Shown here one piece after another: positions 2,896 through 20,293 of a stretch of 35,060 nucleotides of DNA. The position numbers and the translations under genes were made by a program. The notes below the pieces were generated by a model, which was given only the letters and a program-made list of their open reading frames with translations, was not told where the DNA came from and did no database searches. Source of the stretch: a virus; the IMG/VR virus record IMGVR_UViG_3300002053_000037, positions 1-35,060 of that record; one strand, given 5' to 3'. Each line of letters opens with the position of its first letter. The first letter of the stretch is position 1.

Positions 2896-3409
2896 TAAAA
2901 TAGTCAAACACATAGAGAAGGCTCTAACGTTTGGAGAACTAGCAGACTTCTATGACAGTAAACATGGGGGACGTAAGGCAAGAACATTGCCGATGGATGA
3001 TGTTTTCAATTGGGCTAAGACACAACCTGAAGTAGAGTTTGAGGAGGAAAGAGGTCTATTGTTTTGGGTGGATGAAGGCCCTAAGATTAAGAAATCAAAG
3101 CAGTGGATGGCAATAGATGGAAAGTGTTTTCTAACAAAGGAACAAGCTCAAGCTTACAATGATAATTACCACAAGATTAATGAGCTTGATACAGAAGTCG
3201 AGAAACTAGAAGCACTGAGAGAACAGAAGTTACAAATTAAGGAAATGTATGAGAGAGGAGATAAGTTTCTTGCAGCATTATATGAGTTCAGTGAGACATT
3301 AGATGATGAAGACAGCGATGAACATTACGGAACTGAGCGTGAACTCTTTGTAAGATTCATGCCACAGTTAGCTGTATACCTAGCAGACAGGGAGAATAAA
3401 GATGAGTAA
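2888..3409 (+). CDS. Hypothetical coiled-coil protein (173 aa)
   Basis: ATG at 2888 overlaps the ligase stop by eight bases. The N-terminal half carries several Trp and Lys residues (KKSKQWMAIDGKCFLTKEQ). Residues about 95-120 form a charged coiled coil (INELDTEVEKLEALREQKL), and the C-terminus is acidic. No catalytic motif is visible. Its position directly behind the ligase may be functional or only packing. Confidence 0.75.
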   Translation: MSDKIVKHIEKALTFGELADFYDSKHGGRKARTLPMDDVFNWAKTQPEVEFEEERGLLFWVDEGPKIKKSKQWMAIDGKCFLTKEQAQAYNDNYHKINELDTEVEKLEALREQKLQIKEMYERGDKFLAALYEFSETLDDEDSDEHYGTERELFVRFMPQLAVYLADRENKDE

Positions 3410-7163: not shown

Positions 7164-7249
7164 GTCGGTGTGGCGGAATGGCATACGCGACGGACTTAAA
7201 ATCCGTTGGTCATTAGACCGTGTGGGTTCGAGTCCCACCACCGACACCA
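7164..7249 (+). tRNA. tRNA-Leu (anticodon UAA)
   Basis: Acceptor stem GTCGGTG (7164-7170) pairs perfectly with CACCGAC (7239-7245), followed by discriminator A and an encoded CCA (7247-7249). The anticodon stem is ACGGA/TCCGT around the loop CTTAAAA, giving anticodon TAA, which reads UUA. A long variable arm (TGGTCATTAGACCG) makes it a class II tRNA, as expected for leucine. The T arm is GTGGG-TTCGAGT-CCCAC. At 86 nt it is standard for tRNA-Leu. It sits between two protein genes in the same direction and may help with UUA codons in this AT-rich genome. Confidence 0.96.
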
Positions 7250-10727: not shown

Positions 10728-10906
10728 CTAAACAGATGCCTGAAAGAGTTTACATTAATATTGAGGACTATAGTATCAATATACAAGGATTCAAGCAGGA
10801 TGATGAAACAGATGAGGAAGCTAGTAATAGAATTATGAATCAGATTGAGCAATTAATCAATGCCACTGGTTTGATACGTATACATATCCATAGTAAGGGG
10901 GCGTAA
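10724..10906 (+). CDS. Hypothetical protein (60 aa)
   Basis: ATGA overlap with the gene before (10724-10727). The order is beta strand (RVYINIEDYSINIQGF), acidic linker with helix (TDEEASNRIMNQIEQLINAT), beta strand (LIRIHIHSKG), suggesting a tiny alpha/beta fold. No known family. Confidence 0.66.
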   Translation: MTKQMPERVYINIEDYSINIQGFKQDDETDEEASNRIMNQIEQLINATGLIRIHIHSKGA

Positions 10907-10907
10907 G

Positions 10908-11201
10908 ATGGGGTGTGTAGATAATCTTGAATGGTGTAAAGGACCAGCAGAAAACGGTGCCTGTGTTGCATGTACTATAAAGTATTTTCGTAACTTACTT
11001 GATAGAATGATACAAATAACTGACCCGAAAAAATTATCTCTTAGAAAGAAGATGGGTGAAGGAGATTTTGAAGGTACACATTTTGAATTTGGTCTTATAG
11101 TACCATATACTATGTATGTGGAAGTTGATGGAAAAATCGCCGCACTAAATATGGGTGAAGTAGTGCCCGAATGTATACGGAGGATTAAGGAGGAATTGTA
11201 A
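10908..11201 (+). CDS. Hypothetical Cys-containing protein (97 aa)
   Basis: ATG 10908 follows AAGGGGGCGTAAG. The N-terminal 25 residues contain C at MGCVDNLEWC and ENGACVACTIKYF, four cysteines that could form a zinc site. The rest appears to be a beta hairpin (FGLIVPYTMYVEVDGKIAAL) and a helix. Function unknown. Confidence 0.66.
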   Translation: MGCVDNLEWCKGPAENGACVACTIKYFRNLLDRMIQITDPKKLSLRKKMGEGDFEGTHFEFGLIVPYTMYVEVDGKIAALNMGEVVPECIRRIKEEL

Positions 11202-11578: not shown

Positions 11579-11865
11579 TATACAAGTATCCGATTGACCC
11601 AATACCTGACCAAGTTCTTACAGTACATGGAGGGATAAGGTTTCTTGATATTGCTGTACAACGTGGGCAAGTATGCATTTGGGTACTGAAAGAGAAAGAA
11701 TCAGATTGGCCCCGTGATTTAAGAATCAGGATTATTGGTACTGGTCACAATATCCCTGATGAAATACTCTTGGAGTGGCATTACTGGAAAACATTACATA
11801 TGTTAGAGGGTAGCTTGGTACTGCATGTCTTTGTTAATATGCCACACTTAATAGGGAGGAAATAA
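11569..11865 (+). CDS. DUF7352-like phage protein (98 aa)
   Basis: The protein starts MQVIYKYPIDPIPDQVLTVH, continues GIRFLDIAVQRGQVCIWVL, has RIRIIGTGHNIP near residue 60 and ends LVLHVFVNM. The pattern (Y-K-Y-P, Q-x-G-x-x-x-I/L-W, G-T-G-H, H-V-F) is that of a widespread small phage family without an established function. It is the last gene before the structured RNA candidate, whose first base lies five bases after the stop. Confidence 0.78.
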   Translation: MQVIYKYPIDPIPDQVLTVHGGIRFLDIAVQRGQVCIWVLKEKESDWPRDLRIRIIGTGHNIPDEILLEWHYWKTLHMLEGSLVLHVFVNMPHLIGRK

Positions 11866-11870
11866 GGAAC

Positions 11871-12031
11871 TTGAGGGCTAGTGGCAAGCTTGCTTGCAGG
11901 GATGTCTAATGAGTCCAAGGGATAAAATCATTAGGAGTGGCCCTTCACGCATGGGGCAAGTAAGACGTATCTTAGGATACGCCACTCACTACCAGCCTTT
12001 GACTTCGGGGTCTGGTCCCACTAGCCCTCAA
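11871..12031 (+). ncRNA. Candidate structured RNA, five-way junction
   Basis: A 161-nt gene-free stretch is closed by a perfect 14-bp helix: TTGAGGGCTAGTGG (11871-11884) pairs with CCACTAGCCCTCAA (12018-12031). Inside are a small hairpin GCAAG/CTTGC (11884-11897), a 7-bp stem CTAATGA/TCATTAG (11906-11912 with 11928-11934), an immediately adjacent 7-bp stem GAGTGGC/GCCACTC (11935-11941 with 11981-11987) enclosing CGTATC-TTAG-GATACG (11966-11981), and ACCAG/CTGGT (11991-11995 with 12012-12016) containing a TTCGG loop. AAGGG (11917-11921) could pair with CCCTT (11941-11945) as a pseudoknot. No open frame with a start and ribosome site fills the region. It matches no RNA family I recognise. It could be a stand-alone RNA cut from the operon transcript or a cis element for the gene at 12054. 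Confidence 0.7.
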
Positions 12032-12053
12032 TACTTTTGGAGGAGTTATTAAC

Positions 12054-12383
12054 ATGAAAATATCTGACCTTAGACCCTGTGCTAATTGTGGTGGGAAAAT
12101 CACTGGACCGGAAGGTAGATGCCCACAGTTCTACGTATTGAAATTTAGTACGGCTCTGTTGAATCCTCGTGAGATACAACGACAGATGGCCGGTGCTGAA
12201 TATGTTGGACACTTTGGCATAGCTCAGGCTCTAGGTATGGTTGACTCGCAGCCTGTAGCTACAATCATAGGTGACGAAGAGGGAGGCAGGTGGTTGACAA
12301 TTTACTTGTGTCAAGAATGTTATATAATGAAGCCTATTAATCTGCTTGAGCTTATCGAAAAGGCTCAAGCTCAGGAGAAATAA
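12054..12383 (+). CDS. Hypothetical zinc-binding protein (109 aa)
   Basis: ATG 12054 follows GGAGGAG after the structured RNA. The N-terminus ISDLRPCANCGGKITG and, about 60 residues later, TIYLCQECYIMKP supply two C-x2-C pairs, consistent with one zinc site. This N-terminal pattern is frequent in small phage proteins. If the RNA upstream acts in cis, this gene is its most direct target. Confidence 0.7.
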   Translation: MKISDLRPCANCGGKITGPEGRCPQFYVLKFSTALLNPREIQRQMAGAEYVGHFGIAQALGMVDSQPVATIIGDEEGGRWLTIYLCQECYIMKPINLLELIEKAQAQEK

Positions 12384-15698: not shown

Positions 15699-15838
15699 TG
15701 TACAGTCTGTACATTTTGTGTACAGTACATTTTTCCGACAGTCTGTACACATTATGTACAGTACATATTTTGTACAGCCTGTACACTTTTTGTACAGGTC
15801 ACTTTTGGCATTTCTTAGCTGTACACTTTTTGTACAGC
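15699..15838. repeat. Array of four CTGTACA-N5-TGTACAG palindromes
   Basis: Perfect 7+5+7 palindromes lie at 15707-15725, 15743-15761, 15779-15797 and 15819-15837, with spacers TTTTG, CATTA, CTTTT and CTTTT. Centres are 36, 36 and 40 bases apart. The last two extend to 8-bp arms with different but still complementary outer bases (C/G and G/C), so arm symmetry is preserved. Extra TGTACAG half-sites occur at 15699-15705 and 15771-15777. Symmetry suits a dimeric DNA-binding protein; operator or iteron roles are both possible. Confidence 0.8.
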
Positions 15839-15876
15839 ACCCCTTGACTTTTACCCCGTCATGGAGTGAGGGATTT

Positions 15877-17009: not shown

Positions 17010-17224
17010 TTTGCCCTCCTCTCGTTTTGGCCTTTGATTTATGCATCAAGATGGCCTACACAGCGCCCCTTAGTCTTTCAAATTCACGCTTCCGTCCCGA
17101 TTGCCCTCGGCCACCTTGATGCGGCGGCGGACCCGCCTTTCGGCGGCCCACTAACAACCTGCCCTTGTGACATTGCTTCGTTTTAGCCTACGCCCTCAGC
17201 CGCACGGCTGAGATATTAGCGAGG
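17010..17224 (-). other. Intergenic spacer with hairpins inside island
   Basis: Between the ParB-like gene and the zinc-ribbon unit. It contains a palindromic CAGCCGTGCGGCTGA hairpin near 17196-17212, just past the ParB-like stop (terminator-like), one copy of a 29-bp inverted repeat (17141-17169), a CCGCC-TTTC-GGCGG hairpin (17133-17146) and the TGATT-N4-CATCA site (17035-17048). I see no credible gene; a 29-codon frame here has no supporting features. Confidence 0.55.
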
Positions 17225-18654: not shown

Positions 18655-18731
18655 TAGCCGCCTTTCGCTCAGTGGTAGCGGGGATGATTTCCGAATCATC
18701 CCCGCTACCTTGCCCTAGCTAGTGGCGGCTA
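18655..18731. promoter_or_regulatory. Long hairpin containing a TGATT-N4-AATCA core
   Basis: GGTAGCGGGGATGATT (18674-18689) and AATCATCCCCGCTACC (18694-18709) form a perfect 16-bp stem around TCCG. It is nested in an outer TAGCCGCC/GGCGGCTA helix (18655-18662 with 18724-18731). The tip TGATT-TCCG-AATCA is the same 14-bp palindrome found elsewhere in the region. On the minus strand it lies in the leader of the 74-aa gene. It may be a leader-RNA structure, a regulator site or both. Confidence 0.7.
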
Positions 18732-18748: not shown

Positions 18749-18756
18749 ATAACTGC

Positions 18757-18785
18757 CACAAGGGCAGGTTATTAGTGGGCCGCCG
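18757..18785. repeat. Inverted repeat pair B, right copy (partner 17141-17169)
   Basis: CACAAGGGCAGGTTATTAGT followed by GGGCCGCCG matches the reverse complement of 17141-17169 at 28 of 29 positions. Pair B brackets both the ParB-like gene and the 74-aa gene. Such near-identity in non-coding DNA suggests recent duplication or a maintained function. Confidence 0.82.
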
Positions 18786-19521: not shown

Positions 19522-19932
19522 CTGACAAGGAATGTCAGAAAAGTGACAAAAATGTCACTGTTGTTTGTGTCAGTCTGATAAATAAGTGATATACTAGATA
19601 TAATGTTACTTGCTAGTAACTAGGAATGATATCATATATCTAGTTAGTTGTCTGTTTATATCAGTATGTATTGCACAATGTTCTGCACAATGTGGGAGCA
19701 AAAAACATGCCACAAGGCCCATTATAGGCTATTCGTATCTAATTGATATTACGTTAGTTAGCTACAAAAGTAACTGTACACTATCTGTACACTAACTGAG
19801 TATGTCAATATGACATACTGTTACTATCTAGTAACATGTATCTACATATCATATAGTAAGATAATGATATAACTGTTACTATGTAGTAACATACATAAAT
19901 AGATATAAAGAACAAGTGACAAATAATGTCAC
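19522..19932. repeat. TGACA/TGTCA palindrome family
   Basis: Sites: 19522-19538 CTGACA-N5-TGTCAG, 19542-19559 AGTGACA-N4-TGTCACT, 19916-19932 GTGACA-N5-TGTCAC, plus the inverted-order TATGTCA-ATA-TGACATA at 19801-19817. The first two are 20 bases apart. The shared half-site points to one dimeric protein. Confidence 0.6.
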
Positions 19933-19975
19933 ATCAAATATCAAGAGTTAGATATATCTGTTACCATATCGTAAC
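19605..19975. repeat. Four GTTAC-N6-GTAAC palindromes
   Basis: 16-bp palindromes begin at 19605, 19820, 19875 and 19960 (inner bases TTGCTA, TATCTA, TATGTA, CATATC). Three share the longer arms GTTACT/AGTAAC; the fourth has CTGTTAC/GTAACAG. They are spread over 370 bases between divergent gene sets, as expected for operators of a phage repressor or activator. Confidence 0.72.
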
Positions 19976-20293
19976 AGGTGGGAGGGTAAATATATCGTTT
20001 CAAATGGAAATATATCGTTCTTATGGCACACCCCCTATCCGGCGTCACTACTCTAAAATCGAGGACGCCTTACTCTACATGCGCGCATGTAACACGCATG
20101 TACACGCGCGCATTCATTAATTATACACGCATGGGCGGGAGGGTAAAATGATTTTTCTATCACGTTTCTTGTACAAACGACTCGCAAATTATCAAGTTAA
20201 AATTCTCAAAAAATTTCCGTAAAGCCTACTGGAAATCTACCCTTGATGTAAAAATCTTTTGTACAAAAAACGTGCTCATTTTGGAAAACTCTT

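Follow-up and report, generated by a model that had tools for sequence, protein, structure and literature searches.

Genomic context and the gene-free gap

The window, a 35,060-base IMG/VR virus record analyzed at its full length, encoded a GpA-type terminase, a portal protein, and a P22-type coat protein, and its left half consisted of small codirectional genes. Almost no relatives of this small-gene region were found in the loci of phages sharing the head genes, and the region is therefore lineage-specific. Within the run of small open reading frames (ORFs), which touch or overlap one another, the ORF list contained a single long gap, 188 nt on the plus strand at 11866–12053. Upstream lay a gene for a 98-aa protein of the DUF7352 family (PF24043; 11569–11865, plus strand; Pfam E 3.7e-19), and downstream a gene for a 109-aa CxxC...CxxC protein (12054–12383, plus strand) with a Shine-Dalgarno sequence, GGAGGAG, at 12039–12045. 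The downstream protein, with its two CxxC pairs, had no Pfam or PHROG match. The element described here occupied 161 nt of the gap (11871–12031, plus strand), began six bases past the DUF7352 stop codon, and had a GC content of 52%, compared with 40% across 8–15.3 kb.

Codon scores of the gap were negative in all six frames, and those of the neighboring genes were positive. A coding reading, represented by a 52-aa ORF with a TTG start at 11894–12052, was rejected, as it scored -0.18 against +0.08 to +0.43 for the genes. The gap was also considered as a duplicate of the upstream gene, a reading that was rejected on a single 35-nt match with an E value of 0.72. The gap and its non-coding character were thus observed directly, and the original prediction of a gene-free 161-nt stretch in otherwise gapless coding DNA was borne out. 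We conclude that the intergenic element is real, well bounded, and novel in sequence.

Several other features were recorded in the window. Where the small-gene operon ends, four 36-nt repeats (15702–15849), each with paired TGTACA palindromes, lay in a long non-coding stretch and resemble an array of operators or iterons. Upstream of the head genes, a 21-nt palindrome, GTTAC-N-GTAAC, occurred four times in AT-rich non-coding DNA (19602–19977). A 32-nt inverted repeat (94%) at 17141–17172 and 18754–18785 enclosed a block rich in GC, reaching 61%, in which two long 380-aa ORFs overlapped on opposite strands, both without a PHROG match; the skew of this block was opposite to that of its surroundings, and it could be an acquired module. 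A perfect 16-bp hairpin with a 4-nt loop, GGTAGCGGGGATGATT/AATCATCCCCGCTACC, was present at 18674–18709.

The closing helix and the interior fold

The element was closed by a perfect 14-bp helix (P1), which was located as originally predicted and formed on the plus strand by the arms TTGAGGGCTAGTGG (11871–11884) and CCACTAGCCCTCAA (12018–12031) of a perfect inverted repeat. Its pair probability was 0.92, and it persisted when longer flanks were folded. The arms were the sole perfect inverted repeat of at least 12 bp at a spacing of 60–260 nt in the 35-kb window, and the longest repeat obtained in 3000 dinucleotide shuffles of the gap was 12 bp, compared with the actual 14 bp. Such a helix exceeds chance expectation. 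It covers almost the entire gap, and the downstream Shine-Dalgarno sequence falls outside it.

The interior, also read on the plus strand, was predicted to form a hairpin at 11905–11935 (CUAAUGA/UCAUUAG with an apical GUCC/GGAU and an AAAA bulge; pair probability 0.89–0.97), a branched arm at 11935–11987 (GAGUG(GC)/(GC)CACUC around GCCCU/GGGGC and CGUAUC/GAUACG hairpins; pair probabilities 0.68, 0.69, and 0.99), and a 3′ hairpin at 11991–12016 (ACCAG/CUGGU; pair probability 0.96). The exact helices that had been predicted were all located: two abutting 7-bp helices (11906–11912/11928–11934 and 11935–11941/11981–11987) that meet at 11934/11935, a 6-bp hairpin (11966–11971/11976–11981), and a 5-bp helix (11991–11995/12012–12016). 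Their arrangement around a five-way junction was not established. The helix at 11966–11981 is nested within 11935–11987, and the central junction is therefore four-way by the pair probabilities, unless a weak alternative 5′ hairpin (GCAAG-CUUG-CUUGC, 11884–11897, plus strand; pair probability about 0.35) is counted as the fifth arm. Several weak pairings compete in the region 11885–11904. A proposed AAGGG/CCCTT pseudoknot could pair (11917–11921/11941–11945), but only in competition with helices of pair probability 0.97 and 0.69. A hammerhead-like reading of CUAAUGAGUCC...AAAA was rejected, as these letters pair in a perfect 7-bp helix and had no Rfam match.

Fold stability relative to chance

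The whole 161-nt element folded at a z-score of -4.7. When the strands were compared, the minus strand reached -5.4 and the plus strand -4.4; in this comparison T instead of U letters were folded, and the energy was about one kcal weaker. Shuffling of the 133-nt interior alone, between unchanged arms, gave it a minimum free energy z-score of -1.3, and 287 of 3000 shuffles were equally good. Compatible exact helices in the interior totaled 24 bp, a sum reached by 8 of 2000 shuffles and also by about 4% of windows of the same phage (76 of 1839); z-scores below -5.1 occurred in at least 30 of 1310 windows of the phage. These shuffle, strand, and phage-window comparisons indicated that the closing helix is remarkable and the interior not clearly so. 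The original claim that such dense exact pairing is not expected by chance accordingly holds for the closing helix, but was not confirmed for the interior. As the interior was barely above chance and the two strands scored alike, an RNA of the plus strand is not specifically supported. A structured RNA is plausible, argued from one sequence and, in effect, one helix.

Search for relatives and known RNA classes

A search of Rfam 15 with 11821–12080 on both strands gave no match even at E ≤ 10, in agreement with the original description of the element as undescribed-looking. The only feature of the window passing the Rfam gathering threshold was a tRNA at 7164, and ARAGORN detected no tRNA or tmRNA at the element, reporting only a tRNA-Leu at 7164–7249. 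With the element as the query, blastn found no homologue among 50,697 phage and 72,556 plasmid records. A single-sequence covariance model likewise found none in 1.18 Mb and 0.92 Mb of phage loci, in 51 further records or genomes, or in 100 genomes from the bacterial phylum to which the only cellular terminase match belongs. Because such a model detects only fairly close relatives, the absence of relatives is not strong evidence. Exact-pattern scans of 2.9 million IMG/VR viral contigs revealed no homologue.

Individual candidates were examined and rejected. One IMG/VR contig (L089), from an unrelated phage, contained the same 10-bp arms within a coding sequence of 657 aa; about one such arm-pattern match would be expected by chance by our own estimate, given 20 specified bases, 31 spacings, and tens of gigabases of sequence. 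Motif scans with GTCCAAGGGATAAAA and TTGCTTGCAGGGATG returned 17 and 46 loci, none of which scored above chance with the model. L010, the closest phage in which the head genes are related and the left part is syntenic, carried a 179-nt repeat-closed stretch in a different non-coding region and with an unrelated fold.

Two stretches in other phage loci were noted in their own right. In L007, a phage with a DUF7352 gene, positions 10902–11021 lacked long open frames, had a perfect 15-bp closing helix, and folded at a z-score of -5.8; this stretch had no sequence similarity to the 161-nt element and no Rfam match. In L060, 152 nt lying mostly outside long open frames (3245–3396) contained repeated CCCCTATA units and a perfect 16-bp closing helix, folded at a z-score of -8.1, and had no Rfam match.

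A scan with the concatenated neighbor genes found no relatives. Six DUF7352-type genes and one CxxC-type gene related to the flanking pair were inspected, and the element was absent in every case; in the CxxC case, the only relative of that gene that was found, the upstream neighbor abuts the gene directly, with no gap. The element therefore does not travel with either flanking gene.

Interpretation of the element

The best explanation, which we hold tentatively and with somewhat less than even confidence, is that the element belongs to a polycistronic phage mRNA, in which it is transcribed as a structural feature between two genes. In this model, the 14-bp helix would close a branched 161-nt domain just past the DUF7352 stop codon, and this stable fold would keep the upstream message, at its 3′ end, apart from the 5′ end of the zinc-protein message. 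The likely effect would be on mRNA lifetime or processing, as the stem could act as a block to 3′ exonucleases or could provide a site for a double-strand nuclease within its 14 bp; cutting of the stem may also free the domain as a small RNA. Transcription of the element is inferred from the operon layout, and its folding in the cell and its effect on the mRNA are likewise proposals. The arrangement fits that of an operon mRNA element, with an onset six bases past a stop codon, a long stem, and the next ribosome site outside it. The near-chance interior, the strand symmetry, the lack of homologues and covariation in the collections searched, and the relatives of the flanking genes without the element count against this explanation, as does the result that the matches listed included no promoter-like site just upstream and no terminator-like site after the element.

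The same domain might instead be a free-standing regulatory or structural non-coding RNA of the phage, either transcribed from a promoter of its own or excised from the operon transcript, and acting on host or phage targets. This is unlikely, although not negligibly so: the domain is discrete, GC-rich, and non-coding, with paired ends, and phage-encoded small RNAs are described as a known class in a review (PMC12197685), but the lack, among the matches listed, of a promoter-like site directly upstream and of an intrinsic terminator downstream, an interior fold not above chance, and the lack of relatives argue against it. That the element represents a phage non-coding RNA of a new class, with the 14-bp helix as its closing stem, seen so far in one uncultivated phage lineage and performing a function of its own during infection, is rather improbable.

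Because the signal is strand-symmetric, it could also reside in DNA, with the pairing acting there or arising as a by-product; in that case the 14-bp arms would be terminal inverted repeats, left over from a small mobile element or serving as a paired site for binding or recombination. The minus strand folding at least as well, the GC content unlike that of the surroundings, and the relatives of the flanking genes without the element, as expected for an insertion, fit this reading. We nevertheless consider it rather improbable, since a target-site duplication is absent (no direct repeat is common to the two flanks, ...AGGAAC and TACTTT...), the element is single-copy in the 35-kb record, and the searches made revealed no copy in phages, plasmids, or IMG/VR.

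A non-functional spacer that holds a 14-bp inverted repeat by chance would account for the near-chance interior and for there being only one truly rare helix, picked from a 35-kb window; repeats of at least 14 bp around gene-free stretches were also present in other phage loci. We regard this as improbable, because the gap shuffles never yielded so long a helix and an unused spacer of 188 nt is unusual in this operon.

Least probable is a leader that acts in cis, as a riboswitch-like element or as a site for protein binding, to control translation of the 109-aa CxxC protein: the element lies directly upstream, and CCUC of its 3′ arm could pair with GAGG of the Shine-Dalgarno sequence, but the predicted accessibility of that sequence was near-identical with the helix (0.28) and with the helix prevented (0.27) in 11866–12083, no leader gap precedes the single relative of the gene that was found, and Rfam yielded no riboswitch even at E ≤ 10. 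With longer flanks, the thermodynamic prediction of accessibility was 0.45, compared with 0.27 when the helix was prevented. The original suggestion of a cis element for the zinc-binding gene at 12054 was weakened by the gapless relative and by the near-constant accessibility in 11866–12083.

Should the element give rise to an RNA that is stable or processed, that RNA would be novel in sequence and would come from an uncultivated phage lineage whose small genes are poorly known. For now, the element serves chiefly as a well-delimited target for homologue searches in metagenomes and for RNA sequencing.

Comparison with known systems

GOLLD and ROOL (PMC12286853) are examples of large phage-encoded RNAs. 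The element resembles these phage- or plasmid-borne non-coding RNAs in its predicted multibranched fold. They are, however, much larger than 161 nt, and the element matched no Rfam family. A GC-rich non-coding profile is given as a criterion for picking structured-RNA candidates in bacterial intergenic regions by DIMPL (PMC8723152); like such candidates, the element occupies a long, GC-rich, non-coding gap and has a stable predicted fold, whereas the motifs described there rest on homologues and covariation and the element is a single sequence. A phi29-type pRNA is not indicated, as no phi29-type packaging ATPase lies beside the element and the terminase, about 9.6 kb away, is of the GpA type. 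The element recalls the msr-msd region of retrons in that a long perfect helix, comparable to a1/a2, joins its two ends and encloses hairpins, but the element has no adjacent reverse transcriptase among the matches listed, and no RVT family was present among the Pfam matches listed for the scanned window proteins.

The RNase III sites of the T7 early mRNA are an example of intergenic processing or stabilizing structures in a phage polycistronic mRNA. T7-type sites are simple hairpins, whereas the element has a predicted multibranched interior of 133 nt; like the T7 sites, it combines a long perfect stem with a position between phage genes of the same direction.
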